From Gossypium raimondii (taxonomy: Eukaryota > Streptophyta > Magnoliopsida > Malvales > Malvaceae): a stretch of DNA of 64,000 bases. A program made the position numbers and the translations under genes. The notes below the pieces were generated by a model. That model was not told the DNA's origin. It did no database searches and worked only from the letters and a program-made list of their open reading frames with translations. Positions within the stretch are counted from its first letter, which is position 1; each line of letters begins with the position of its first letter. This document shows positions 4,800-58,527 of this stretch, in pieces. Location: positions 8,494,001-8,558,000 of the forward strand of contig NC_068569.1 of NCBI RefSeq assembly GCF_025698545.1. The letters run 5' to 3'.

Positions 4800-6834
4800 T
4801 GTGATACCCAATTGTTGCCCGAGCCCAAAACCATTTGCACAGCCCAATAAACCAAATACATTTGGCCCAAATGGCCCAAAGTTAACCCTAGGCCACAACA
4901 TGTTTTCAGCAGCAATGGAAGCAGAAACTGCAGATCGCGCCGCTCGCACGTTCTCCATCTGCAGCAACGGCCCCATCACCCCACGTTCAGCGATTCCTCG
5001 CTTCCACCATGCATGTTCATCCTACAAATGAACCAAGAACAGTATTATAGAGGATATACAGCAAAAAAGGGGGGAGGGTTATAAAAAGCTAAGAGGATTT
5101 CTGTAACAAGGGTTAGAAAAATTTTGTATTGAAAACCATTTAAGAAAATAAAAAAGGAAAAAACAGAAAAGCAAGGATTTTGAAGGTGATTTTCTGGGTC
5201 TATTTTTCTTCTTGCTCATTGATTTCTTTTCTTCTTTTTTTTTTCCTTTGTACACCAAACAAAAATAAAAGAAAGAGGAGAAATCCTTACCAAAAGAGGC
5301 GCGCCGTCGACATCTTTAATTCTCTTCGTCTAAATCGAAGTTGGAAGGGGGGAGTTCGGCTTGAAAAACAGAGGAGAGGATGGAGCAGAGTTTGAAATGG
5401 ATTTGAACTTTTAAACATTGATGGGTTATTTGTGTTTTTAATCCTTCCATTTTATCCTATCATTTCAAAACCTTTTTTTTTTTTTCAAATTTTTCCATGA
5501 AATATCGAATCGGTTTTATTTTAGTCCAGTGCTGTGCAGTGTTTTTGGGTAATTTTCTCCTTCGGCCCTCCCCCTGTTACACGTGTTTTAAAATACTCCC
5601 TTTCTTGTTTTGATTTTCAAATTCAGCTCTCAAATTCTGTTTGTTTTTTTAACTTAATCCTTAATTTGTTATTTTTAGTTTTTTTTATTATATTGTTAAT
5701 ACTGTTTATTTAAATTATTATTACTGTATTATTATTAGTTTATTATTATTATATTATATATTATTATTATTATTATACTTACTTATATATGCGTATATGC
5801 ATATTAATACATATATATATTTTTAACGTTTTAAATATATATACTATATACATATTTTATTATTATTTTGTTTTCACAGTTTTATATATATATATACATT
5901 TATATTTCATAATCTTTATATGTTTTCCCAATTTTATAATTTATATGTTTATACAATTTTTATAACATGTACATATATATTTTATACTCTATTCAAAGCT
6001 ATTATAAATATTTTTCACGTTTTTATATTTACTAATATATTATACTTAATACTTTTTTTAAGAAATGTATGAATATATTTTATATGTATTTTATTATTGT
6101 TTTATTTTTATGACTTATGTATTCATATAGATATATGCATTAACATTTTATAATACTTATGCATTTTTCTCTTATATCCATATATATATTTGCAAAATTC
6201 GTTTATATATCATACTTATGTATACATATAATTAAAATTAAAATTTTTGTTTCATATTGCATTCACATTTTTTAACATATCTTTTAAAAATATATTTTGA
6301 TTTTGTCAAAACATTAAAATCATTTTTTTATGTTTTTTCAAAGGCTTTTAAAATAAAAATGATATTCAAAGTTAGGGATTTTCGAGGAAATTGAGTCCTA
6401 ACGTATTGGGTTCCGATTTTCTTTGTTAATTCCCAAATAACCGAGAATAGTCGTTATTCAAAATGTATAAGTGAAAATCATTTCTAGGAACTTAATTTGT
6501 TGTGTCCTAATGTATTGGGTCTCAGTTTCTTCGTCTGACTTGAATAATTGATTATCCTTTTTCAGATTTCAACATTTGAGTTTTTTAAAAAAAAAACTTT
6601 TTAACCCTCGACACCAAGACATTAAACAATAAAATTGGTACCGATTTTGGGCGTTACGAGGGTGTTAACCCTTCCTCGTACGTAACTAACTTCCGAACCT
6701 GTTTTCTCAAATTTCGTAGACCAAATTTGTTTTAAGGTGAGCTGATCACACCTAAATCACGGATCGGTGGTGACTCCAATTTTTGTTTTAAAGTCGACAA
6801 CTAAATTTTTGTTTTCAAAAAAATGGTTTCGACA
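4800..6834. mobile_element. Solo LTR of a Ty3/gypsy-type retrotransposon (fossil)
   Basis: The 2035-bp segment begins TGTGATACCC, ends in TTTCGACA (5'-TG...CA-3'), and is flanked on both sides by the same 5-bp target duplication TGATA (4795-4799 and 6835-6839). No gag-pol region follows, so this is a solo LTR left by recombination between two LTRs. The 3' part (ttgggcgttacgagggtg, then ggatcggtggtgactcc) resembles a family I remember as abundant in cotton; gypsy assignment is from memory. The intact target duplication and clear ends suggest a moderate age. It carries no working gene. Confidence 0.85.
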
Positions 6835-33975: not shown

Positions 33976-36900
33976 CTAACTTTGGGGAGTTTTGAGTTGC
34001 AAATTGAACTCCTCTCCGACAGGTAGCATCAGTCTTGTTATCTCCACAACTTGGAATTGGGCATCCTTGCCTAATTTTGGCTTCAAAATTGGCTTTCCAT
34101 TCAAAATTCTTGTGTTTCCAGGGCTTAACTCATACCCCTTCACCCTCCTCCTTTTTTCCAACCCCACGAATGTCACTTTATTTATCATCCATTTTTGACT
34201 CAAAGCATACTCTCCATTCTCAACCTCCGATCTAACAGATACGCTATCACCGGAATCTGCTCCATGAAATCTCACAAAACTCCACTTTCCCCCACCTTCT
34301 CCCATCTCCACTGCCTCTCCGTCGTCCAAGAATAGTTCCCCAGTGATGTTCTCCGTGTTGCTGACGGCCACCAGGAGTTGGAACGGCGTTTCCCGAGCGG
34401 CTTTCGTCGTCATTGCCTCTCCTTGCATGGCTATGATGTTTCCTTCTCGGACATGAACGTTTATATGATCAGGTGGTGCAGCGAGTGTGAAGTATTTCCC
34501 GGATGTTGCGCTCACTGAGTTGGAGTAATTGAAGAGGTCGAACCAGTTTCCTGTCGGGAAATAAGCATCGACTGAAACTACTCCCGGATGTAATGCAGGT
34601 GAAACCATTATACCTTTACCTACCAGAAACTGTGAATTGATTTCGTAAGTGTGAACATCTTGAGGGAATGTGAAGAACAGAGGCCTTGCAATGGGAGTCC
34701 CTTTCGTGTGTGCCTCGTACATTAGGGTGTAAAAGTATGGCAACAGGCGGTACCGGAGGCCCAGCACTTTCCTAGCTGTGGCAGCCACTGAATCCCAGAT
34801 ATAGAGCTCTTGCCGGATTGAATGAAGCTCCGAGTGATCTCTAGCGAAAGGGTAAAATGCCCCTAGCTGCATTAATGTACACCAATAAATAATGAATCAG
34901 TTGCGCAATGCTTCATTTTCTCTTGAAGTATGCTCCTAAATGGTATGAGATACAACCCTTTAAAAAACAAGATAAATTTAGGAACTTACTTGAATCCATC
35001 GCCTGCACAGCTCTTCAGTGGTATTCCCCGAAAAGCCGCATATATCAGCGCCAACCATTGGAATTCCAAAGAGTCCGAAGTTCAAAATGGATGGAATTGT
35101 ATAAGCCAAATCCTCCCAGGTGGCTGCATTGTCACCAGTCCAGTGTGCTGTATATTTCCCAGAGCTTACAAACGTTGATCTGCTAAGTATAAATGGGCGT
35201 TTGCCGGTCAGATTGGTCAATGCCGCATGAGTTGCTTTGCATTCCAGTAAACCATACAGGTTATGAACATCGTATTCTGTCAGGTTACCAAAATGCAGAG
35301 CAGTTGCAGGAACTGTTTTGTTATTAATGGGTCGTTGAATTCCCTGGTTGTTGATCTTGTAAGGAGGATCATCCAAGGCTGAATTTGGCGTTGGAGGGGA
35401 TGTTATGAAGTTGGATACCTCATTCATGTCGAGCCAAAGACCATCAACAGGGAGAATGTCTCGAAACAACTTGATCTCACCACCCCAATATGTTAGTGTT
35501 TGAGGGTTTACAAAATCTGGAAAGTAGACTCGACCAGGCCAAACTTCACCCAAATAAGGGATGCCATCTCTTTTTATGAATATATCAGCTTGCATCCCTC
35601 TGATGTAGCTTCCATATGAACTGTTTACACTGATACCTGTCAACATTGTAATCATAATGGTCATTATTTTATTATTTCCGTTGTCTCTGTCACCACCAAT
35701 ATATATATATGCATGTATCTTAATTTACCGGGATCTATGATGACCACATATTTTTGACCATTCCGATGAAGCTTATCGACGAGTTGTTTCATCTTGTCCT
35801 CCGGGAAGTTGACGGGGTCAAGAGTGAAGTCCTTAAATCCATCCATGTAATCGATGTCCGTCCACATAACTTCCAGAGGGATGTTAGCTTTGGCGTAGCC
35901 AGCAACCACACCCTCGAGGTCAGAAACGTTTTTGTAACCATATCGGCACTGATGGAATCCTTTGACAAGCAATGACCAAATTGGTGATGATTAATGCAAT
36001 AAGTCAAAGATATAGACACCGAGTCTAGCAATCAACGTTATTGTTGATATCAACATACATGATATGGTAGTTATTTCTTTACAGAAATAAATAAAACATA
36101 TAATGGAGGTGAAGGGAAAAGAATGGTGTTGTACAAAGGCTTTTGATACCACTTATTGTTGACTATTCGCATCTAAATGCTATGAGAAGTTTTCCTAAGC
36201 ATGGATTTTTATGGGTTTTTTTCAAGGCTGGATCCTTGCATTTTGAATCAATTATAAATTACATATATCCCTCATTTTTAATCTCAACAAAAGCAACAAG
36301 CCAATATCTAGCTAATGTTTATTTAGATTTGAGAGAATCATATATGAACATGTGTCTAATATGAAAATATTACTTATAGAAAAAGTCATATATCGTATCA
36401 TTATAAATATGATTTTTAAGACTAATTACTACAACCTTACTAAACCTTTAAATAATAGATCAAAGTTGAATGGTCATTATTTCAATTATTCTCCAAGAGT
36501 AGAAAAAGAACATATATATTCTTAAAAAAAAAACCAAACCTACGACGTAACGTAAGGACTAAGAAGACAACTAGAAAGGAGACGATTTATGTTTCCCTAG
36601 AGCGACCGGCTACAAAAATTCTTGTTTACTTTTTGGCCATGACTGATTATTGTAGTTCATTTTGGCTGAAACAACAAAGGTCCCTGGCTCACGTTGTTTC
36701 ATCCTAAAGAAAAGGACTCTTTTGTTTTTCATTTCACTTTTTTAGGCTATTCATAAAAATCCGTTTTTAATATTCCGATCATCATAAAAATTAAAAAATA
36801 GAAAAGAATTGGGTAGTTACCGAAGGACCAATAAGGCATGGGAGCAGGGCGGCCAATAAGTTCAGTATACTGCTGCACGACGGTGTGGGGCAATGGTCCA

Positions 36901-37858
36901 CCAAAAACATACAAGTCTATAATACCTCCAATGACCTTGTAAGTTATCCGGTTTGCTCCATAGACTATGTCCATTCCGTTGCTATTAAACAACAATACTC
37001 CATGGCTAGTTCCTGCCGCAATTCTGCCACTACCAGATGCTGATCTTACGTCAATGTAAAAGGGATGCGATCCATAAAGATTGAAGTCAAGATTAGCACT
37101 CGCTAAATCCGCATTCCATAACGTCAACGTGTCGTCGTGTTGTAACTTGAACGATCTCTTCGTGTGTTCCCCGAGTCCGTACAGAGACGACCTGTTTTCA
37201 GGCAGCGCCGAGGAGAGTTGGATGTATTGTTCCTTGAACACCAAGAAAGTGCGTGGGTCCGATGGGTCCGGTGATGCGTCGAAAAGGGTGTCGCCGGAGG
37301 ATCGGCGTTTCACCGTGAACCCGAATGGTGTGGTGTTTTGGAGAGTGAAAATGAGGTCCGATGTTGGGTCCGACACCGAGCGTGTTTCCATTAGCTTCCG
37401 TGTCTGGTAGTTTGCTGGTGAGCCGAGGCTGAAAGGATTTTGGGATTGACGAGGAATAATTTCTTGTGGGATTTCCCATCTTTGATGCCCTGAATCTGTA
37501 ACTCTGATTCTCAAACGATCGCTTGTCTCGAAGCTTCACACAGCAATTTTAAATCACTACGAATTGAGCTTGAAAATCTTTTAAGTTATAAAAAAAAAAC
37601 ATCTCAGTTGAAAAATTACCTGACGAAAAGATTGAGATTTTGAATATCAGGTCCATAAACAGAGGAGTTGCGGATAAGAGAAAGATCGGCGGCCAACCAT
37701 TTTTGCTCCGGGTCAACGGAAACAGATTTCAGTTTGTAGCCATAACCAACTGCTTCATTAACCCCATGAACAACGGCCAAGTAAGAAGAAGTAGCAGAAA
37801 AGATAATAAAAAACAATAAAAGATGATGTAGCAAGTCCTTTTTTTGTGTTGTATTCAT
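33976..37858 (-). CDS. Secreted alpha-glucosidase, glycoside hydrolase family 31
   Basis: Five exons on the minus strand: 37620-37858, 36821-37533, 35729-35959, 34990-35636, 33976-34866; 906 aa, the usual length for plant GH31 enzymes. The N-terminus has a hydrophobic signal peptide ([14 protein letters not shown]), so the product goes to the apoplast or vacuole. The GH31 catalytic motif [13 protein letters not shown] lies near residues 455-467 (nucleophile Asp in LDMNE), and the acid/base Asp is in [10 protein letters not shown] (about 563). Several Asn-X-Ser/Thr sites suggest glycosylation. It should release glucose from maltose, starch fragments or similar alpha-glucosides. It is closer to Arabidopsis alpha-glucosidase At5g11720 ([34 protein letters not shown]) than to alpha-xylosidase XYL1, by memory of both proteins, so a xylosidase role is less likely. 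Confidence 0.94.
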
Positions 37859-41149: not shown

Positions 41150-43246
<2,097 letters not shown>

Positions 43247-43735: not shown

Positions 43736-46369
43736 TCATGTACTGGTTATGTCCCGGAAAACCTGAAGCCGATTCCTCCTCAATGAAACAGTGTTTGCTG
43801 ATGCGTTATATCCACCCTTCACACCAAATGATTCTAGCTGTTGAGTTATATTCTCAATATGATGCTTAGAACGATCAGGATGTTGATAAATTATGTTGGA
43901 ATTCAGATTTTCATCATTGAGAAATTCGTCCTTTTCTTCCTCTTCAACCATGTCTGCCCAGGTTTTCTTATTCGATGCAGCATCTGCCGGTTTTTCCACT
44001 CCGATTTCTGATTCATCTTTAGAAGAAACCAATGGTTCTACATTAAGACTTTGCACAGAATGAGTAGTCACACTGCTTGATAGCTTGCTAAATGAACCGT
44101 CAATGGATTCTTCAGCGCATCTTCCCCTTCTTTGATCTCTATTATTGAGCCATGACAAAGAGTTTCTTGGCTGAGTGAATAGAACTCCAGATAAGCCTTC
44201 CTGAGCTTCCTCTTCCCCTAGGCCAACTGCAGAATAGTTTTCAGACTTCGCATTACTTGAACTAAGTGGTTCTTCTTTAAGTTTCTGGATCGAAGGTGAA
44301 GGCACACTTTCAGTGGTTGTGGTTTGCTCAAAAGAGAGCTTCCGTATCGAATTTCTAACTGTAGTATCTTCTCCCCATCTTCCTCCTCTCCTCTGATCTG
44401 CAGTGTTGAAACCCCATGAACATCGTCTTGGTTGGGTTAACAAAACTTTTTCCGAGTTCTTCCTACTGGCTGCCAAGGAAGCATACATGTTTTTATGAGC
44501 AGAACCTACTTCTTGTCCAGCTGAATACCTCCAGCTTTCCTTCAGCTTGCTGCTGGAATACACAGACCCTTCACTCGGGCTTTCGAAATAGGAGCCTTTT
44601 CTCCACTTCTCGCTCAACATGGTTTGTGGAGAACATTGAAAACTACCTTTCAGTCCAATGGGTGTGCATTGTGAACTACTTGTGTCATCATATCCAGACA
44701 AGTTACCATTCTTCTCAATACACCAAGGGATATTATCACCATTTCTAGGAAGGAAAACGCTAGCTTCCTTCAAACTTCTATCCCTGCATGATGTCAAACA
44801 TCTTCGAGTTTCATTCCCTTTTTCCGGTTCCTGTGCCCCTGCCGGCTCTAACTTTGACTGCGTTTCTACTTGCATAAGAATTTCCATAGCACGTTCATAT
44901 GATTTGGAGTAAGACTCATCCATCTCTTCAGTTCCAGCTGAAACTTTAACATCCTGAAGCAGTGATTTTGCTTCACCAAGCCTATTCATGTGCATCAAGC
45001 ATATTGCCAAGTTGCATTGCTTATTCTTATCTGGTTCCAGAGACAAAGCTTTTCTGTGATGATACAAACTCAATGTCAAATACATGTATATACACTTTTA
45101 AGAAATATAAACATAGCACACCATAGTATACCTGTAATGTTGTTCAGCAATTCCATAATTATGCTGCTGGAGATAGGCCCAGGCCAAATTCCCTAGTATC
45201 CTATAAAACATAAGACAAATTTGCAGAAAATATGAGTTGAAAGGATGAGGAGAATAAAGGGTAGGAATGCATGTAATATATCCCACCTTGATTTCTCTTG
45301 TTCAATAGTAATCTGAATCTTCTTCCCTTGAGATCTTGCAATCTTTGTCTTCTTCCCACCGAAAACGGTTCCTTCCTCGATGTTCCTCAGTTTGTTCAGA
45401 AGGATTTCAATCTCTTCATCAACCCTTCCAGACCTCTGCAACAACATATCATCATAATATTTTTTCTCTGAAAATTTCAAAATCCTCTTGTATGAAGCAT
45501 AATACATTTCCATTCACTCCAATTAGCTATGACATTATGATCCTTAATCTGAACTAAACTCATTAATCTGAACTCAATTTACTAACAAGCAAATGAAAAC
45601 TAAGCTCAACAGAAACAAATAAACATTTGAAGATAAAGATTGGCATGGTACCTTGTAGAGTTCAACAAGGACATTATCAAGAGACTCCTGAGAATCATAA
45701 GGGCAAAGATGCCGGAAAGATTTGATTGCCTCAATAGCCTCATCAGATCTATTCAATTGTTTCATCACAACAGCCATGTCTTTCAATGCACTATCAACAC
45801 GATCTCCAGCATTAATGGCAGCCCAGAACAGGGAAACGGCCTTACTGGGATCCTTGTCTATCAACTGTGCATCCATAATCCAAAAAAATAAAAGAGCAAC
45901 GTAAGTTCACATGGAATTCTAAAGCCTAAACTAGTAACCTGTAAGGTCACATGCAATTCGGATTTCCAGTTATACGGCCAATGGAGGAAAACAGAAAGAA
46001 ACAAGATAAAATGAATTGGATCATCTCAGATACCAAGAAAATTTAGGGGATTCATCCATGCAAAAGAACCAGTAATCAAGAAAATATCCAGGAAACAGTA
46101 AGAAGAAAAATGGAAGGGAAAAGATAATATCATTTACGATATTGATAATGGGAAATGGTGTAATTAACCTGGACGTGCTTTGCCCTGCCATAAGGAGAAT
46201 CAGAAGCTGGCACTTTGTGAATGACATGAAAGCAATCGCCATTGTTGGCAGGCGAAATTCTTTTCCTCTCTGACATTGGCAAGACGGTGGTGGACTGTAC
46301 TTTCTTCCATGCAGGCGGCTGTGGGGTCAAGAAACCCCTCGCTGGACAGTGTTTGTCGCTTGACCACAT
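43736..46369 (-). CDS. POLLENLESS 3/TDM1-like TPR protein (MS5/SDI family)
   Basis: Five exons on the minus strand: 46169-46369, 45652-45864, 45287-45435, 45132-45200, 43736-45053; 649 aa. I chose the ATG giving MWSSDKHCPARG, because the frame upstream has no ATG. The N-terminal RGFLTPQPPAWK is typical of the family. TPR repeats follow (about residues 68-210: AVSLFWAAINAGDRVDSALKD, NRSDEAIEAI, GNLAWAYLQQHNYGIAEQHYR, NLAICLMHMNRLGEA). The long C-terminal half is low-complexity, with KTWADMVEEEE and a C-terminal FRDIT. Arabidopsis POLLENLESS 3/TDM1 drives exit from meiosis II in pollen mother cells, while the shorter SDI members act in sulfur starvation. The long C-terminal half favours the POLLENLESS 3 branch. 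Exact orthology is inference. Confidence 0.87.
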
Positions 46370-46820
46370 CGATTCTCTGTTTTTTCTCACCAAAATCTCC
46401 AAACCCTTTTCAAGATTTTCCAAGAAAGTGTTTCTATCAGTCGAAAAGAAGAATTTTCGATCAATATACTAACGCTTCTATTACTATTGTAAATAAAGGA
46501 AAAGAGTCTTTATTAATTTGGATCAATGCTGTTGAGTATCTCTTTAATTTTCTCTTGTGGTGGGATTTAGGGAAGGGAAAGCCACTTTATCTCTTGAAAG
46601 TTTCTGTCGATACTTTGATAAAAGATTCGCGGAAACATTTAGAAACTGAGAGAGAAAATTGAAAGAGAAAAAGTGTGAAGACGGTGATGATGATGATAAT
46701 TCGTTTTGGGAGGAGAAATCGGATGACAATCAAAAAGGAAATAGCCGTTATATAATTACTAGCCGTTGGGGTTTTACAGTGGCTTTCACTTACTTTTTAC
46801 TGGGTTTTTATGGCATAATA
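46370..46820. other. Promoter and leader of the TPR gene
   Basis: The region upstream of the minus-strand start has a T/C-rich leader, with (atgatg)-type repeats near 46,685. There is no separate coding frame. Confidence 0.4.
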
Positions 46821-47564: not shown

Positions 47565-48305
47565 TAAATTTAACATTTAACATTTACTCATTTTATCAAT
47601 TTGGTCCATATATTTTTATTACTTCGACTTTTAATCTTCAAATTTTAATCAAATGACTTTCTTTTGGACATCTGCTCTTCATAGACAAACTTGGGATTTG
47701 CGATCCCAGGTAAGATCGGTTCAGGATCATGGGATCCTTTTTTATCAGGTAGGAAGGGCTGTTGTACAAAATGTACTTCTAAGTAATTGCCGCTTAGATC
47801 CTATATCTATCTATATGAAGAAGAAATCATGTAACGAAGGGGATTCTTATGTGTACAAATGGTACTTCGAGCTTGGAACGAGCATGAAGAAATTAACGAT
47901 ACCTTCTTTATCTTTTGAGTTGTTCTGCTGGATCGGTCACTCAAGACCTTTGGTCTCTACCCGGACCCGAGAAAATTTAATTGAATTATTAAAATTTTAA
48001 TAACATTAATGTGGTCACTTGTATGATAAACCACATATAATTATAAAAAATTAAAAAATAATAATTCAACAAACTTTAAAAATTTTTATTTTTATTTTTG
48101 GAAAATGTATCCATTCTAACAATGAAGTATATATAAATTATCATACGAGTTACCATATCAATACCATTAAAATTTTAACAATTCAATATTTTTGGTTAAA
48201 ATAATAATTTCACTAATTTTTAAAAGTTAATGGCTAAAGTGACCCCAAAAATAAGAACCAAAATGGTAAAATGGATAAATATTAGTGACTAAATTTATTT
48301 TTATA
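47565..48305. mobile_element. Inverted-repeat (MITE-like) element, copy 2, split by chloroplast DNA
   Basis: The left arm aacatttactcattttatca is complementary to the right arm (tggtaaaatggataaatatt). The arms and centre follow the same order as copy 1, but a roughly 300-bp chloroplast fragment interrupts the left half at 47669-47971. The host element was therefore in place before the plastid DNA arrived. Confidence 0.55.
47669..47971 (+). pseudogene. ycf2: Nuclear plastid DNA insertion (NUPT): ycf2 fragment
   Basis: The translated sequence includes [38 protein letters not shown] and [16 protein letters not shown], which I recognise as the C-terminal part of chloroplast Ycf2. The match begins at atctgctcttcatagac and stops at acccggacccga, inside the plastid gene at both ends. 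One extra base after ACGATAC shifts the frame: the expected [11 protein letters not shown] is out of frame, and the nucleotide match continues. It cannot make a product. A few substitutions against the plastid sequence I remember suggest a moderately old transfer. Confidence 0.92.
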
Positions 48306-49800
48306 CCTATTTTTATACTCAAACTTTTTTTTTAAATTTATACCTATATATCAAAGTGAGATCCAAAGGATCTTCCCTACAAGACACATGTCACACACTC
48401 ACCACGTTTCTTTTATTTTTCACATTTTATAAAAGTAGCTAAATTTCAAATTTGGTTCTTCTAACATGCTTAAATTTGATCTTTAATCTTTATACTTTAA
48501 TTTTAACGATAAAAGTAGCTAATTTTAATTTTGGTCATTTTAATATGTTTAAAATTGAGATTTAATCATTATATTCTGATTTCTAATATATTTTGTTCTT
48601 TATATTTTTATAATATTATTAATTAATTTAATATTTTTATGATGTTATTAATTAATTCAAATAGTTAATATTAATTTTTCAATTAAAATATTACGTGATT
48701 ATGCATATGACTAACTTTTATCCTATGCAATGTATGAATAAATTATATGAATTTATTATAACACGTTAAATTTATTTTAAAATTTAAAAGTTTATAAATT
48801 TTCATAAATTATATAAAACAATATAGGCTAAACATTGTATAAAACATTTTATGTTTCTCAACCCATTGATTGATTGAATAAATAAAATCTTTTGATAAAT
48901 CTTCGTAATCTATGTTTAGGGTTTTATATTATGCTTAAATAATTTTAATTTTTGCAACATTTTAAAAATATTTTATACTAATTTTATTTTAATTTTGATA
49001 TTAATAGTAAGTTCTTTAAACATGTTTTAAATTAAATATTTTATTTTTTATGATTTAAATTAATTATTTTAATTTTAATTGAAAATAGAACAATTTTAAC
49101 TATGTTATTTAATAATTTAAATATGTATTTACTATATTATAAACATATTATAATTAGTATTAAAAATGTTTAAAACAATATTTATAAAGTGTTTTAGATG
49201 TGATATTTTAATCATAAAAATTAATATTTTACACTTCTTAAAACCTGTATTCTAATTCCAATCTTAAGTGAATTTTAAAGTACACTTTAGTTTAAACAGT
49301 TTTAATTTTAATCTTAACTGTTATGATTTTTTAATTTAAATAAATTATTTTAATTCTACTTTAAAAGAGTTTTAATGTTTTAAACTATATTAAAATTTTA
49401 TCTTTTAAGGTATTAAATTATTATTTAACTTATGAGTTTTAAGTTTTTTAGGTAAAGAATCGGATTGTTTTTATAAATAATAGTATAATATTAAATTGTA
49501 TTTTGTATTTAAAATTATTATAAAATTGCCAATATCACCTCATCACTATTTATTTGAATTTATTTTAGTTCATTTTTCTATATTTTATTTTGTTCAAATA
49601 ATAATATTTATCTCTAATTTATATTAAAACTTATGAATAATATTTATAAATTAAAATAGTTATAAATCCGGGTTTGAATTGACTGTTTATTAAGTAAAAT
49701 TATATTATATATCAATTAATATATGCCTGATGATCAAAAATATTTATTATCCCGGTTAGGTTGAAGTTACACTAATCATGTTATTATTTCATTTCATAGA
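48306..49800. other. Very AT-rich spacer
   Basis: Roughly 1.5 kb of A/T-rich low-complexity sequence with repeated 'attttaattttaa' phrases. No ORF with coding character and no clear element ends are visible. Confidence 0.5.
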
Positions 49801-50570
49801 AGTCAGCAATTCCGAATCAAATTGCTATACTGAAAGAAAAGGAGCGAAAGGCGGCGATACCCTCCAAGCTGTGTAATTCCTAATTCTTTTTTCTTTCATT
49901 TTTAAATTTAATTTCACTTTCTTTCTATCTCATGTAAAACTTTATGAAATTAAAAATCTGACATTTCCATAATAATATTTTGAATTTGTTGAAGATTCTG
50001 CTTTGCACTTTATTGAATATATTGAAATTTTCCTTCTATTTGTTGGGAATTTTTTTGTCATAAATATGAAGATTGAAGACGTGGATGTATTTTGTGTACT
50101 GGATTTGGCGTTGACTAATGATATTGATATCAAACTTTTGCGATTGATTTAGAATTCCTGATGCTTTTGTTACGTATGGTCAATGTTTTCTCTTACAGGT
50201 TTCTTTTCCTGCAAAGGTAATTTTTACTTTAGGGTTTTCAGGGAGGCTAAATTAGAATGCAAATTTTGGCTGAATGATGTACCAAAAGTTAAGTTTCTTT
50301 ATGATTAGTTCCTTTTGTTTAAGTAATTATGTATACAAATATTATACTGTGGCTTTTTTCTACTATTTTTGCTGATTTTAGACATTTTTGTTAACGGAAT
50401 ATATTTCAGAGTCATACGATGATTGTTTATTTCTATTTTTTGTTTATTGTATCTTAGAGTTGTGTTTGATCTGGTGTCTTATAGTTTTCAGTTTTTGGCC
50501 CTTGGAAAAGACTTTGGAGGAGAGGAGTGGATCCGCTGGTCCGTCTTGGGCTGGCTTTGTTCATCTAACA

Positions 50571-50741
50571 ACGGCTCTAAGGAGAGAACCTTGTGAAAAA
50601 ATTAGAAGGGGCAAAGAGTGTATGCAGGCTTTTCCTAAATTCTTGATTGCATCCCCTTCATTTCACGGTGGTCGTGGTGCCCTACCTTCAGCTGGTGGGC
50701 ATCCCGCGGATCTTACTTACCTTGCTGGTGGTGGGTGCTGA
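50571..50741 (+). CDS. Upstream ORF in leader of the VTC2-like gene, ACG start, 56 codons
   Basis: An open frame ends 77 bp before the main ATG. Taken from ACG at 50571 it encodes 56 residues beginning TALRREPCEKIRRGKECMQ and ending GGHPADLTYLAGGGC. Plant GDP-L-galactose phosphorylase (VTC2/GGP) mRNAs carry a conserved uORF of about this length that starts at a non-AUG (ACG) codon and represses translation when ascorbate is high; I recall the C-terminal wording as very similar. The segment is far richer in GC than its surroundings. The frame stays open upstream of the ACG, so the start choice rests on the family. A tiny AUG uORF (MEL, 50765-50776) lies between it and the main start. Confidence 0.75.
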   Translation, partial: TALRREPCEKIRRGKECMQAFPKFLIASPSFHGGRGALPSAGGHPADLTYLAGGGC

Positions 50742-50818
50742 TACAAGCATCTGTAAAGCTGTGAATGGAGCTATAGTGTTTTATTGTTGTTTTAGGAATT
50801 AGGACTACTTTTATACAG

Positions 50819-53800
50819 ATGGTTACTGTGAAATGGCTTGAAGATAAAAGCTTTCTAGCGAAGAATGGAAAGTCTAAGCAGCTAGAAGATTCTTTCTCGT
50901 TTCTTCAAGGTTAGTTATTACTTTGTCTTTGTTTTTGTTTTCTTCTCTCTTCATTTATTGAATTCAATGGAGAAAATATCTGAAAGAAAAGCATTCTCGG
51001 AGAAAATCAATATGTTATTGTCAGATTTTGATGCTTTCTACTTGTACTTACATATGTTTTTAGAAGGTACGATGTAAAATAAAAGACCTTGAATCTAGTA
51101 ATTTTTGGCTAATATGCAGTATTTTAGTGTATAAAGGCTTGCTTCTTACCCTAGATGCAAAAGTCAAATTCTTTATTGATTAGCATTATTTATGATGTAT
51201 GCATGTCCCATGCATTTTAGTTCCTCTTGAGAGTAGGAGTTTAGTAAGCTTAATACAATTGCTGCCCTTCATCAAATTAGGCGGCATGCTAATGTTTGGC
51301 ATTTTCCATACAGCATAGCTTCCTAGATATATAAGCGAATAGATATACAATTCCATTTACATTGGAATAAAGAACAGAATTTTCTTCTTAATCTGGTGCG
51401 CAAATAGATTTTATAGCTATATAATTTTAGAACAGGCTAAAAGGGTGAGTTGTTCATTGGACTCTTAGCATATTTATATATATATATTTCCTCCAATCTT
51501 GTTTTGAAAATCTTCAGAAATTTTTACAGGTATGAATTTCCCTATTTACTGCTTCGGTATCCAATCTCTTGAGGAAGACACTTCATTTGAAGGTATTTCA
51601 TGCATCATTGAGGAAGAACAAAGTATATTGGATGCTGTTCTGCTATCTCAGGTATAGAACAAATGTAAAGCATACTTGTTGAGGTCTATCTATCACCTTT
51701 ATTCATCTTTCTTGTTACTTTGGCAGTGGGAAGATCGGATGTTGAAAGATTGTTTCAAGTATGATGTGACAACCTCAGAAATTAAAGTATTATACCTACC
51801 TGTTTCTATCTTCTTTTCTTTTCTTTTCCTTTTTTGCTGTAAAGTTGGAATTACTGTAGTACACATAATTTCTGTGTTGCATTACATAGGTTGTTACTGG
51901 AAAGATGAAGTTTCTTTGTCAACTGAATGAAGGGCAGATAAAAGATCATCTTTCGAAATCTGAGGGAAATACACTCCTTGAATTGGATCCGTTTGTGTTT
52001 GACTGCGTGAAACACCAAGAGGAACTACTTTTTTGTCTTGCCAACAGTAAGAAGGCAAAATCTGAGCTTATTCCTTCAGCTTCTGTGCCTGACAGTGCCG
52101 TCTTAGTGATCATCAATGTAAGGCCCAAGTATTGCTTAACTTTTGACTGTAAGTTTAGTTCCTGTGTGAAGATGGTATATATATCCATATTATCAATATT
52201 GCGATATATGCTCAAAACTATTGTCTGGAAAAGAAATTTGTTTCCTTCTAATCTTTTCTTTCAACACGAGGGACCTAGAGTGTTTAGGGTATTCCACGTA
52301 ACATATATACTAGAAATGTGTAAATGTTGCTTGAATACTTGGATCCTCATTGACTTGGGTTTGGCGTCCTTATATCAAGTCTGAATCACGTTCCCCGTGA
52401 ATGAATTATGTATCTACCTTGATAGCAGCCATGTCAATCTTCATTAGGTTTCAGTCCCTTCTTTTGTTCATGATTTTTCAAGAAAGCTTCTATTTTTGTG
52501 GCATTGGAGTTCTCTTCCTGTATTTTAAGCCTCAAGCCATCATCTTTTAGCATGCTTTGGTAAGAGAACAAGAAAATATTGAAATTTACAGTTATGTAGC
52601 CCAAGAAGACCAGTAGACTTCCCTTTCTGCGTCCCTGATCTTAATGGCTGTTATATTTATTATGGGTGATAAGATATGTCAATGTAATCAGTCAGTTTAA
52701 GTTATATTCTTCTAACCTTGTACACTGGTTTTTAGGTAACCCCTATTGAATATGGTCACGTCTATCTGGTACCTTGTGCCTCAAACAGACTTTATCGTTT
52801 CCTCGATGCAAGATCCACTGAAATAATCGCAAGGCTTGCTGCAGAAATTAATAACCAATCATTTCGCATATTCTACAATTGCTATATACCTAATTGTTCT
52901 GGTGTATATTTTGAGGTATGAATTCAGTTCTGGTTCTTCTATTTTGCTTTATATTTCATGTTATTGTTGAACTCACAGATTGTTTTGTTGTTTTGCCTTC
53001 AAAGTTCGAGGATTATATTTCTCAATATTTCTTACCTTCATATAGTTATGTCTTTCTCTCTCGTTACTGATATGCAACTTTAGTTACTAAAAGTTACCAC
53101 TGATACTTAGTTCTTTTTGTTTAATGTTTTGGATACTTCCACTCTTGGTTGTAAGCGGTGGTTCTTTTAGTCTTGAGGATGATCACTGCACTGTCAAATC
53201 GATGTTTGCATGTTTCTTCTTTTAGTATCTATGTACGTTCTTTGTACATGATGCATGCTTATAGCTATCATGGTTCTCTTATTTGATGTTGCAGGCTTGC
53301 TACTTCCCTCACCCTTTACCTGTGGAGTTCAGGCCTGCAGGTACTTTATTTGGTGCTAGTGGTAGGAGAGGGATTCACATATGTTCTATCATAGACTATC
53401 CTATTAAAACCCTCTCTTTCCAGACCACCCAAAATCTCAAAATACTGGCTGCAGCTATTTCTGAGATATGTTTTCAGTTAGAGGAAAAGAACATTCAATA
53501 TAATCTGATGATTTCTGGTTCTGGCAAAAAGATTTTTTTGTTTCTTCAGGTAAGTAAGTTTGTTCATAGCTTGTAGATCTATCTCCTACTGCTGAAACTT
53601 GATATCTCATTAGTTTTATTGCGCACACACACATTTCATTGTTATAGCTAAAAAGGAGACTGTGTAGTTAGTTATTTCTACCTTGTCTAGGCTGTTGTTT
53701 TTTAAAATTTTAGTTTAGTCGTGCAATTTTGTACTTTCAGTTATAGTAAAATATTCAATAGTTTTAAAATTTGAAAATATGTAATTGAAATTGATTAATC

Positions 53801-54756
53801 AAACATCCATCTAACTCTGTAATGCTAAAGTATGACATGTCATATATAGCAAATAAAAACATGCTATGTGTCCATATAAGGTCACATAAAAAATGGGGTG
53901 CACTGCCGTGTAATAGATTATAGCCTAAAAGGTTGAAAGATTCCACATTTATGATGTGGTATGGTATGGACCTGTACATTTTTATTAAGTATTTTTAGAA
54001 AACATCGTACTTGGACCAACAGAGTAAATGGGATGTGCAAAATGATGAGTGAAGCAAATATGTCCTATGTTAGTATTACCCACTAAAAACATCACTTGTC
54101 AATATAATGCCATGTGATGGGTTATAGTCTAAATAGGGAGGAAAATTACACTAGAGATGTGGCAGTATATGGACGTGTGGCAAATTTTTATTAGTTATTT
54201 AAGAACATAATATATTTACCTATCATGGGATCTGCAATACTAGCAGGAAAGCAAAGTTTTGATATCATTAACTGGACAGGCTTACTGGTTGTCACATCAA
54301 ATTATAATAGTTAATTTTAAGCATGATAGGGTACTGCAGCATCTGTAGAGCTTTATATGTAGACAATCATCATTTATGAAGAACAAGGAGACAGAAAATG
54401 TAAAACAGAACAGCCTTATGAGTGTATGATTTTGTCATCTTTAATTTCAGAACATAACAGTCTAGATTGTGGTAGGTTTGTTTTATCAAAATTGATGTCA
54501 AATTGGAGGATTCAATATTGTTGAAAACTTACTGATGGATTAATTTTAATCCATCCAACAGAAAACTTGTGCAGCCTCTCATGCCATCTCAGCCTGGGAA
54601 TGTGGGGGCTACTTGTTGTTCAGGAATAGGTACCAATTTGATCAAGTTACTGAGGATGCCATGGTTAATAGACTGAGCAGTTTCTCCCTTGACGATAACA
54701 ACTTTGAAGCGGTGAAGCAGCTTTGTTGCAGCATTGCCAGTAAATTTGATGTTTGA
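50819..54756 (+). CDS. Divergent GDP-L-galactose phosphorylase (VTC2/GGP)-like protein lacking the HIT motif
   Basis: Seven exons: 50819-50909, 51530-51651, 51727-51786, 51890-52117, 52736-52915, 53295-53549, 54562-54756; 376 aa, against about 440 for VTC2. Family landmarks are in order: IYCFGIQSLEED, WEDRMLKDCFKYDVTTSEIK (from residue 72), KFLCQLNEG, LVIINVTPIEYGHVYLVP, FRIFYNCY, PLPVEF, YNLMISGSGKKIFL, and a C-terminal WECGGYLLFRNRYQF. True VTC2 uses a histidine triad (HLHFQ) to make L-galactose-1-phosphate for ascorbate synthesis. Here the aligned residues 223-227 read GVYFE, so both histidines are gone. All splice sites and the frame are intact, arguing against a plain pseudogene. It may be a non-catalytic regulator or a gene in early decay; I cannot tell which. 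Confidence 0.85.
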
Positions 54757-55945
54757 TCTAAAAGTTTTTAAATGCATGTTTATATATTTTGGAATTATGT
54801 TGCTACTGGAATCTTGTTTTTCTCCTATTGCCTATTGGGAACTTAGGCTTGTAATAGGGGGTTGACTTGTTTGTTTATGAGGATGACAGGATCAAATGCT
54901 ATATTTGGAAGTTGTTTTGCTGATCAGGATGGCTTTTATTTTGCTGATAAATGGAGAAATCAGTTGAAGTATTTGAAGGATATAAGAAAAGAGCTTTACA
55001 TTACTACTTGTTCAATATCATTAATATAGCATTTGGAAAAGCTTGCACGAAAATTAATTCGCACCATTGATTTCAAAGTAATGTTGTATTTTATCTCTAG
55101 GTACGAAGTGAGATGATCTAAAAATAGAAGATAAATTTTGTTCACATTAAGTCTTTTGAGTTTGATCCCAAAAGTAAAATACTATTTCTGATACGCTAAG
55201 AAAAATACAAAAATAAAATGACCAAAATTGTTCAATCTAATAAACTAAATTATCTAATACTCCCTCTCCAGCTGGTTTAAAATTTTCTCCATTGCCAACT
55301 TCAGTCAACCTCTCAAAAGTGTCGGTTGTAGTCCTTTTCTAAGTATTTGAGCAACTTGGTAGGGCATATAAACCAATCTATTGTCAAACTTCTCTTCAAT
55401 AAACTGCTTGTAACTTCCACATGCTTTGTTCTATCAAGAAGAACCAGGTCACGAGCAATAAAAATTGCAGCTTAACTTCAATAAATGCTTGAACTTGTAG
55501 CAATACCCATTCGGCCAACCAAACAGGCGTGCTACCGTAGCATGCCGAATAGGGCCGGTAAGGAATGGTCATTCAAGGCAACCAAACATTTTGTGAGTTC
55601 CAATTCTAATTCACCATTACATTTATGCAGTGAAAGTACCCCTTCCGTTCAATTCTAAATCACCATCACAAGTTAAAAAGGGGGGGGGGGGGAACTTAAA
55701 ATACCAGCATTGTATGTTATTTTCACAGAACAAAACAAAAACCATGCATGCTCACAATACAAAAGTAAAAACCAATTAAAACATTGAACATTAACGTGAT
55801 TTATATCATTTTACTGCATACTTGGGAAGGAACTTACACCAGGAAACTCTTCAAGCTTAATACAACAAAAATAAAAAGAATTTTCAGCTACTAGTAGTTT
55901 TATATTGTAAAGGAATACAATTACCAGCTCTTCAACTGTCCGTCA
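54757..55945. other. Convergent spacer between VTC2-like and HERK2-like genes
   Basis: Contains both 3' UTRs and about 600 bp of ordinary sequence. A poly(G) run lies at 55,679-55,692. The segment near 55,500-55,560 (ccaaccaaacaggcgtgctaccg) looks repeat-derived but has no identifiable partner here. Confidence 0.4.
55679..55692. repeat. Poly(G) tract
   Basis: A run of about 14 G bases preceded by aaaaa. Homopolymers of this kind are prone to length variation and sequencing error. Confidence 0.85.
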
Positions 55946-58498
55946 TTAGACAAGCTCACCATGAGAGTTCGATGCCCCTAAACCAGAGTTTCCATCAAAC
56001 TGCCTATTTTCAGCTTCTTTCACTTCCAAATCCCTCAAGGCCTGACTGCTTGAGAAGGAATTATCCGTGGTGTTGGACCCAATCCATGCTTTATGAAGTT
56101 GCAGCACATACTCCAAGTGCCATAGAACATCCCCCATTGTAGGCCGGTTCTTCCCCTCGTCTGCAAGGCATTTCTCTGCTATCTCTCCAAACTTCTCCAT
56201 TGATTCTGCAGAATAGTTTCCCCTCAGATGTGGGTCAATAATGGTTTCAAGCGACTTTTGTCTCTGCCATTTCATTGCCCACTCTGCAAGATTTATCTGC
56301 TCTTTTGGCAAGCTGGGATTTATAACAGCACGAGCACAAACAACTTCGAACAACACCACACCAAAAGAGTAGACGTCAGATTTCTCGGTCAACTGTTGCC
56401 TGCGAAAATACTCAGGGTCTAGATATCCGAAGCTCCCCTTCACTGCAGTACTAACATGAGTATGCTCCAAAGAAGGACCAGCTCTTGACAGCCCAAAATC
56501 TGACATTTTAGCCACAAAATTTTCATCCAACAAAATGTTGGTTGTTTTAACATCCCTGTGAATAATTCCCCGCTCTGCTCCTGTATGAAGGTAGTGCAGT
56601 CCCCGGGCAGCACCAATGCATGCTTCTAATCGCTGCTTCCAAGTCAATGGCGGGACATCATTTCCAAACAGATGACTCCTAAGAGTTCCATTTGCCATGT
56701 ATTCATAGACCAAGATCATCTCATTTTGTTCATCACAGAATCCAATCATGGAGACCAAATGCCTATGTCTAAGCTTTGAAAGCATCTCAATCTCAGTATG
56801 AAATTCAGCAAGCCCTTGCTCAGATTGTGGATTTGCTCGCTTTATGGCTGCAAGAGTGCCATCTCCAATCTCCCCTTTAAATACTTTGCCAAAGCCCCCT
56901 ACACCAATCACTAAACTTTCATCAAAATTATTTGTTGCTGCCCGAATCTCAGCAAGCGTAAATTGCCTACCAACTCCAGTGGAGGCCATAGATCCATTTA
57001 GATTTTGAAGTCTAGATGATCGCTTGGCATTGGCAGAGCTATTTAAAATAGAACCGTTGAGGAATAATGGCCGCCACCCAGCATTACTGTTGTTTTTCGT
57101 GTCACCTGATTCTTTTCCTCGATTTTTGCAGAAACAGCATACACGCGTAACAGCAACTGCAAGAATGGCAACAGTAGCTACACCTGCAGCAATTCCCACC
57201 CAGAGAACCCAGAACCTTGAAGCATGACTTGAACTTTTTGTTGAATCGTATCTCTGCACATGGGCAAGGTTTCCATTTCGGCTAAGCTTGAAAATCTCCA
57301 GCCCATTCAAGAGAGCATCAGTGCCTGAAGCACCAGCTGCTGTGTCAGGACCGAGCTGAATCCAGAGGGTGTCGATTTTTGAAGAAACCGCATCAAAGTA
57401 ATCCTGATGATAAGCTTTATTCATTCCACCTGCCTTCACAAAAAGGTCATAATTATTCACAGCAGTCCGGTTGTTTATGTAGATTCTGAAAATCCTAAGG
57501 CTTGGCTTATCAAATACCAGCTCACAGAAGTGTAGGCGGATTAAGTAATCAAAATCGGGATCCACTTCAAACCTCCATGACATATTGAACCTTTTCTCCA
57601 AGACTTGGGTGTTAGACATGCTTCTTGCTGTTTCATACACAAGAAGAGGAGCCACTGAAGAATCATTTGTAGAAGCATAGGTAATATTAGAACTGTTATT
57701 TATTTCAGAACCTGCATTTGCTGTGATCATATATCCAGAATCCACATCCCATGCTCTCCAATAATCGGAATCATCGTTGGGGTTAATCTCCGGACCCCCA
57801 ACATTCAACCTATACATAGTTTCAATTCCCCTTCCACTTAGATTCAGATTCACATCATTTCCACCCACTTTACTGACAGAATCAGCGAAAAGTTTATCGG
57901 TCATAGGGATCATCTCTATGGCATTAATGAAACCAAATGATCCTTTTGTCGGGGTGAACTCAATCACAAGTGAATTCGAATTGATGGGTAAAATATACTC
58001 TTTAACCAAAGAGAACGAGCTGGAATTGCTCCCTGAATTCTGGAGGTACAAATTCTTGTGTGCAATCTCACCGACAACATTAACCTGTGCTAAGAGTTTC
58101 AGACCATTTGCCGCAACATCGAAAGAAGATTCATTTACATTATGGTCCTCGAAGGAGAAGGGACAGAAATGAAGCCTCAAGAAATAGTTCCCTTGGATGC
58201 CATAAAACGTGTAGTTCAATTCATCACCGAAAAGCCGAGCAGATCTGTAGAGTGGAGAAAAGATTGTATCACCACTTAATGCAGGAGTAGTGGAAACAAC
58301 ACCAGGAGAACTAAGGGTGAGATTGTTATCAGGAGCCAAGTCACCAACCCATTTTCTACCCTCCACATTCACACTGGAATTTGTACCACAATTTATCAGA
58401 AAAGACTTTGACTGAGCTTCGCCACTTCTAAAAACTGCACATAATACAACAAGGAGCAAAGGCAACAACTCCCTGCCTTGGACCTTCCCCATTATCAC
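55946..58498 (-). CDS. HERK2: CrRLK1L receptor-like kinase, HERK2-like (At1g30570 type)
   Basis: One uninterrupted frame of 850 aa; lack of coding introns is usual in this family. It has a signal peptide (LLPLLLVVLCAVFRSGEA), two malectin-like domains across about residues 30-410 with many N-glycosylation sites, and a transmembrane helix near 430-453 (VLWVGIAAGVATVAILAVAV). A Ser/Thr kinase follows, with GVGGFGKVFKGE, AIKRANP (lysine), HRDVKTTN (about 648), DFGLSRAG and GSFGYLDPEYF; all catalytic residues are present. FERONIA-family kinases sense cell-wall state and RALF peptides and control cell elongation. HERK2 is favoured over HERK1, THE1 or FER by ARAVINPSLPKEQINLAEWA and SFSSSQAL, from memory. 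The start has two nearby ATGs (MIMG), either of which could be used. Confidence 0.95.
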   Translation of the reverse strand: MIMGKVQGRELLPLLLVVLCAVFRSGEAQSKSFLINCGTNSSVNVEGRKWVGDLAPDNNLTLSSPGVVSTTPALSGDTIFSPLYRSARLFGDELNYTFYGIQGNYFLRLHFCPFSFEDHNVNESSFDVAANGLKLLAQVNVVGEIAHKNLYLQNSGSNSSSFSLVKEYILPINSNSLVIEFTPTKGSFGFINAIEMIPMTDKLFADSVSKVGGNDVNLNLSGRGIETMYRLNVGGPEINPNDDSDYWRAWDVDSGYMITANAGSEINNSSNITYASTNDSSVAPLLVYETARSMSNTQVLEKRFNMSWRFEVDPDFDYLIRLHFCELVFDKPSLRIFRIYINNRTAVNNYDLFVKAGGMNKAYHQDYFDAVSSKIDTLWIQLGPDTAAGASGTDALLNGLEIFKLSRNGNLAHVQRYDSTKSSSHASRFWVLWVGIAAGVATVAILAVAVTRVCCFCKNRGKESGDTKNNSNAGWRPLFLNGSILNSSANAKRSSRLQNLNGSMASTGVGRQFTLAEIRAATNNFDESLVIGVGGFGKVFKGEIGDGTLAAIKRANPQSEQGLAEFHTEIEMLSKLRHRHLVSMIGFCDEQNEMILVYEYMANGTLRSHLFGNDVPPLTWKQRLEACIGAARGLHYLHTGAERGIIHRDVKTTNILLDENFVAKMSDFGLSRAGPSLEHTHVSTAVKGSFGYLDPEYFRRQQLTEKSDVYSFGVVLFEVVCARAVINPSLPKEQINLAEWAMKWQRQKSLETIIDPHLRGNYSAESMEKFGEIAEKCLADEGKNRPTMGDVLWHLEYVLQLHKAWIGSNTTDNSFSSSQALRDLEVKEAENRQFDGNSGLGASNSHGELV

Positions 58499-58527
58499 AC
58501 TCCCTTCCTCAAGAAACTAAACCCCTT

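Follow-up and report, generated by a model that had tools for sequence, protein, structure and literature searches.

A divergent GGP/VTC2 relative of Gossypium raimondii without the catalytic histidine motif and with a candidate ascorbate-feedback leader

GDP-L-galactose phosphorylase (GGP; VTC2 and VTC5 in Arabidopsis) is regarded in reviews as the main control step in plant ascorbate synthesis. Can a copy of its gene lose catalysis, keep an open coding frame and still carry the leader through which the enzyme is proposed to be regulated? This question is raised by a GGP-like gene at 50819-54756 of a 64,000-nucleotide stretch of Gossypium raimondii (contig NC_068569.1), here called the window; all coordinates are positions in this window, on the plus strand unless stated otherwise. 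In this study, we analyzed the gene structure, family membership, active-site region and leader of this gene, and compared the survival of its frame with neutral drift. The predicted protein provides good evidence that the catalytic motif has been lost. As a tentative explanation, we propose a GGP/VTC2 paralogue turned pseudoenzyme, which would act as a non-catalytic tuner of GGP activity and be preceded by a candidate feedback upstream open reading frame (uORF).

The GGP-like gene comprises seven exons with 376 codons plus stop. The GT/AG boundary combinations tested were those no more than 6-8 bases from the boundaries suggested by homology, and just one of the eight leaves the frame open throughout. 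All six introns of this model are GT-AG, with phases 1, 0, 0, 0, 0 and 0. Exon 1 (50819..50909) encodes amino acids 1-30 plus one base and is followed by exon 2 (51530..51651), exon 3 (51727..51786), which encodes WEDRMLKDCFKYDVTTSEIK, and exon 4 (51890..52117), where QLNEG is retained, the KKRP nuclear signal is missing and the terminal IIN corresponds to the start of a HIT-fold strand. The remainder of this conserved strand, VTPIEYGHVYLVP, is found in exon 5 (52736..52915), together with a degenerate active-site loop, FYNCYIPNCSGVYFE, which replaces GYNSLGAFATINHLHFQ. Exon 6 (53295..53549) encodes ACYFPHPLPVE...KKIFLFLQ, and exon 7 (54562..54756) ends with TGA; compared with Arabidopsis VTC2 (AtVTC2), for which a reference sequence not taken from a database record was used, it has a gap of 15 residues close to its start, and its C-terminus is shorter. 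Stops, frameshifts and broken splice sites, the usual marks of a pseudogene, are absent from 50819-54756. For codon scoring, a table trained on the genes neighbouring the GGP-like gene was used. Thereby, the coding frame obtained a positive score in 7/7 exons and the intron frames a negative one in 18/18 cases; a stop-containing alternative frame outscores the coding frame in three of the seven exons, so that the choice of frame is not settled by codon bias alone. A search of the window with the AtVTC2 reference matched exons 3, 4 and 5 of this gene and gave no second GGP, the five other matches (E 0.5 or more) being no better than chance. An Rfam search gave no match.

Judged by its predicted sequence, the protein is distantly related to GGP/VTC2, with homology beyond chance over most of its length. 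BLASTP against the AtVTC2 reference yielded 105 identical residues in 335 alignment columns (31%; E 3e-50), and identity ranged from 31-33% across alignments. This reference in turn agrees at 69-88% identity with 5 of 20 motif strings given for potato and pepper in PMC11222470, and is therefore consistent with independent material. To find relatives, bacterial and archaeal genomes were scanned with the active-site region using the patterns GYNSLGAF and ATINHLH[FY], followed by tblastn confirmation. Among 52 candidate stretches, ten encode relatives (L001-L010); nine (L002-L010) have record titles naming Proteobacteria (Nitrosomonadales, Gallionellaceae, Gallionellales, Sulfuricella, Sulfurimicrobium and others), and L001 derives from an Omnitrophota metagenome-assembled genome. 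With hhalign, the GGP-like protein matched a profile of eight of the ten over 178 columns (E 5.9e-5, probability 65%), by which the two belong to one family; the assignment therefore rests on more than the AtVTC2 reference. Like 73.6% of the GGP genes of eudicot lineage I, to which VTC2 and VTC5 belong, the gene has seven exons, whereas five to six are reported for eudicots II of the angiosperm-II lineage (PMC7640755). It encodes 376 amino acids compared with 430-431 in wheat GGP (PMC6878703). Searches of Pfam-A gave no match for the GGP-like protein, the uORF peptide, the AtVTC2 reference or the bacterial L003, and NCBIfam gave none for the GGP-like protein and one at chance level for the AtVTC2 reference. 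No match was obtained in the PDB by sequence, either for the single GGP-like protein or for the bacterial profile, and neither three scans of viral contigs nor a plasmid search returned a relative of the GGP-like protein.

The predicted structure of one bacterial relative was poor, with a mean predicted local distance difference test (pLDDT) score of 46.1 and a predicted template modeling score (pTM) of 0.44. HIT proteins (Apa2, aprataxin, Hint) accounted for 19 of the 20 best PDB matches of this model, with low TM-scores and none reaching E 0.001, which gives a hint of a HIT fold. L002-L010 are GGP-like proteins with GFGYNSLGAFASVNHLHFQ in the records titled as Proteobacteria, and the match in these loci lies near 5001 (in L005 near 1371). 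In L001:3-10258, the GGP-like stretch is located within a single frame of 3418 codons without a stop, which spans almost the entire locus; stretches resembling HAD, phosphomannomutase, radical-SAM and HD proteins were also seen in it by eye, and a giant multi-domain protein is possible.

The catalytic motif of GGP is H-phi-H-phi-Q (PMC6878703). In our alignment, HLHFQ falls on GVYFE (amino acids 223-227) of the GGP-like protein, where exon 5 ends with NCSGVYFE and exon 6 starts with ACY, and the loop preceding GVYFE carries a two-residue deletion. The second histidine of HLHFQ is the nucleophile, and its place is taken by a tyrosine. The protein contains six histidines and no H-x-H, and H-x-H-x-[QH] was not found in the six frames of 50300-54800. 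A preliminary description of this locus had claimed an intact seven-exon frame of 376 amino acids with the backbone of GGP, in which GVYFE and then ACY stand at the exon 5/6 junction in place of HLHFQ, and had concluded that the histidine motif was lost; the frame, the family assignment and the substitution are all borne out here, and the check that it had suggested for an H-x-H-x-Q elsewhere in the protein came back empty.

This change was set against the ten bacterial relatives, the AtVTC2 reference and five published potato and pepper strings (PMC11222470). NHLHFQ is retained in 10/10 bacterial relatives. Nine of them carry GYNSLGAF followed by ASVNHLHFQ, and the histidine motif was not the pattern by which they were found, though the tblastn query contained it; L001 was found by a pattern that includes part of NHLHFQ. 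A profile including the GGP-like protein aligned the motif site, weakly (E 0.017), to HVHFH of 3ksv, which from its motif we take to be a HIT protein. The 11 non-window sequences share 28 invariant columns, and 13 of these residues are retained in the GGP-like protein. Within AtVTC2 positions 224-240, two of 11 invariant residues are kept and nine are changed, compared with 11/17 kept elsewhere (Fisher test, p 0.024); since the relatives were chosen with loop patterns, these counts serve as description only. The best-kept 16-residue segment, INVTPIEYGHVYLVPC, shows 75% identity to the AtVTC2 reference, compared with 19% for the segment over the motif, and the most conserved part of the whole protein is the strand INVTPIEYGHVYLVP. 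A WE-GG element near the C-terminus is also retained, and the KKRP nuclear localization signal described in grass GGPs (PMC6878703) is absent. As an enzyme homologue without the conserved catalytic motif, the predicted protein falls under the published definition of a pseudoenzyme (PMC10211241). Apart from the motif, KKRP and the two-residue loop deletion, it differs from VTC2/VTC5 by the gap of 15 residues close to the exon 6/7 junction.

To relate this divergence to the unbroken frame, the coding sequence of the GGP-like gene was allowed to drift without selection in simulations with substitutions only (no indels), using 300 runs per identity level. At 80% identity, a mean of 5.4 stops had accumulated and two of 300 frames were unbroken; at 70%, the mean was 7.8 with one unbroken frame. 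None of the 300 frames survived at 60%, 50% or 45% identity, with means of 10.9, 13.1 and 14.5 stops, respectively. By comparison, the identity to AtVTC2 is 69-88% for the potato and pepper fragments and 31-33% for the GGP-like protein. The comparison suggests that the bulk of the divergence built up while the frame was protected, although a recent loss of function following prolonged, altered selection would also be compatible with it. The preliminary description had offered a young relic that had not yet gained stops as an alternative, which fits poorly with an unbroken frame at 31-33% identity.

The leader of the gene contains an ORF that had escaped the preliminary description. It extends over 50571..50741 on the plus strand, starts with ACG in a Kozak-like setting (ACAACGG, with A at -3 and G at +4), encodes a 56-amino-acid peptide, TALRREPCEKIRRGKECMQAFPKFLIASPSFHGGRGALPSAGGHPADLTYLAGGGC, and ends with TGA at 50739-50741, which leaves 77 nt to the main ATG. 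Published GGP uORFs lie in the 5' leader, start with ACG or AUC and have 47-65 residues: 60 amino acids with an ACG start and a Kozak sequence in rice (PMC12559526), 56 and 47 amino acids in wheat (PMC6878703), and 60-65 residues according to a review (PMC7084844). They have been proposed to stall ribosomes and so to lower GGP translation at high ascorbate. By its start, length and place, in which it resembles the leader ORF of VTC2/VTC5, 50571-50741 may be a retained GGP ascorbate-feedback uORF. Strings from the peptide gave no match in the literature, in a set of texts that did not include the primary uORF papers, and a DNA pattern of the uORF gave no match in viral and genome contigs. Within the window this pattern matches once, having been derived from that very peptide. 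The uORF also contains an in-frame AUG in the weak context TGTATGC, opening a 39-amino-acid frame (MQAFPKF...; 50622..50741). The region 48001-50000, just upstream of the GGP-like gene, is very AT-rich, its GC content of 0.182 being the lowest of 32 two-kb bins.

Taken together, feedback control may have been kept in this gene while catalysis was lost. In the pseudoenzyme explanation, the protein would fold around the retained HIT-type core, could form no guanylyl-histidine intermediate and would thus make no L-galactose-1-phosphate. It might be translated at low ascorbate, when the uORF is not engaged, and its synthesis would drop at high ascorbate, provided that the uORF acts as it does in GGP. 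The protein could bind active GGP as a mixed oligomer and thereby tune its activity; alternatively, it could do so by titrating the PAS/LOV protein (PLP), an inhibitor that binds GGP in the dark (PMC11066804). A more specific version, a lineage-conserved GGP pseudoenzyme switched on at low ascorbate via the ancestral uORF and sequestering PLP or pairing with GGP, would amount to regulation of vitamin C synthesis at the protein level, under a feedback switch taken over from the enzyme itself; as a whole, this version appears unlikely. There are precedents for catalytically inactive or related proteins acting on enzymes: the pseudoenzyme TSB-like acts on TSA, the dead paralogue prozyme acts on AdoMetDC, and, in the ascorbate pathway itself, KONJAC1 and KONJAC2 (KJC1, KJC2), which are relatives of the enzyme GMP, have been proposed as regulators of active GMP. 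The KJC proteins belong to another enzyme family and pathway step, and their role, unlike the one proposed for the GGP-like protein, is supported by mutants.

Several features weigh against the pseudoenzyme explanation or its feedback component. Similarity to AtVTC2 in the N- and C-terminal stretches of the protein is as low as in the loop, or lower, although the bacterial relatives also match poorly at both ends. The very low identity may itself reflect relaxed constraint. In the leader, the codon score of the uORF is weak, with 0.487 in frame compared with 0.437 and 0.377 in the others. The peptide match is tentative, as the string PKFLIASPSFHGGRGALPSAGGHPADLTYLAGGGC only appears to correspond to the conserved GGP uORF peptide. 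The 29 in-frame codons before the ACG include no isoleucine codon, so there is no counterpart to the conserved first isoleucine (AUC) of the wheat GGP uORF (PMC6878703). A separate three-codon AUG ORF (50765-50776) lies between the uORF and the main ATG. In published GGP, changing the ACG of the uORF to AUG much reduced main-frame translation, according to a review, and the AUGs at 50622 and 50765-50776 could therefore reduce output. Also, TATACAG immediately precedes the main ATG and might serve as a splice acceptor, in which case the leader would contain an intron.

A decaying duplicate is an alternative explanation: selection would have ceased or be ceasing, and the frame would be unbroken only because the gene died recently or was still partly constrained until a short time ago. 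We consider this doubtful, though it deserves weight. The 31-33% identity, the poor match of both protein ends, and the loss of loop residues, the nuclear localization signal and the segment near the exon 6/7 junction all speak for it, and for one angiosperm GGP lineage a possible relaxation of constraint has been described (PMC7640755). However, many stops would be expected had an active GGP drifted neutrally to such divergence, the leader ORF is unbroken too, and the strand INVTPIEYGHVYLVPC is 75% identical to AtVTC2, compared with 19% for the loop, which is conserved in the relatives, themselves chosen by loop patterns. The retained strand NVTPIEYGHVYLVP and the WE-GG element could instead point to a neofunctionalised protein, in which the nucleotide-binding strand is retained and serves to sense GDP-sugars, or Tyr225 or Glu227 takes part in other chemistry. 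This seems quite improbable with nine of the 11 invariant loop residues changed, and a tyrosine nucleophile at that site is not known to us from any HIT enzyme.

Selection could also act on the leader uORF or the transcript, with the main protein as a passenger. An open uORF of published length before a very divergent main protein would agree with this, but a passenger frame should have broken according to the drift simulation, and the uORF is described as cis-acting in a review (PMC7084844), which makes the idea very unlikely. An active GGP with its motif hidden by mis-splicing or an assembly error finds no support in the assembly and can hardly be maintained given the six-frame result for H-x-H-x-[QH]. 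The NHLHFQ codon pattern with up to three mismatches did match 26 times in the window, compared with a mean of 16.5 in shuffles, of which one in 100 reached 26; the lone match inside the gene is antisense, in intron 4, and has three mismatches. A frameshift as the cause of the motif loss found no support in either search.

GGP homologues of this kind are known in passing, which qualifies the statement of the preliminary description that it knew of no account of such a paralogue. In a survey of 35 homologues, the HIT domain was missing in three (rice, Amborella and Physcomitrium) and the nuclear localization signal in ten (PMC12537018, 2025). By description, the GGP-like protein resembles these three in missing both; the term 'uORF' is used 0 times in the main text of that paper. 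Among 149 GGP sequences, some members without motifs are mentioned, with RcGGP-2 and BoGGP-2 as examples from eudicots I (PMC7640755). The combination with a leader uORF was not found described: among the matches listed, none dealt, by title or start of abstract, with a GGP pseudoenzyme that has kept its uORF. If true, a dead GGP copy keeping its feedback leader would be a case in which regulation was separated from catalysis in nature. It would allow testing of a non-enzymatic role of GGP protein, of PLP titration and of a uORF working apart from its enzyme; PMC6878703 describes what GGP does in the nucleus as an open matter. Surveys of GGP copy number should be read with the warning that dead copies may be counted.

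Downstream of the GGP-like gene and convergent with it, a single-ORF receptor kinase of 848 amino acids with malectin-like domains, presumably of the CrRLK1L type, is encoded on the minus strand (55946-58516). Upstream, an alpha-glucosidase-like gene (33976-37535, minus strand), a beta-tubulin gene (about 41150-43246, plus strand) and a TPR gene of the MS5/SDI-like type (about 43736-46468, minus strand) were recognized by eye. On Arabidopsis chromosome 5, tubulin and CrRLK1L genes lie close together without a known GGP, and synteny could therefore date the GGP-like copy.

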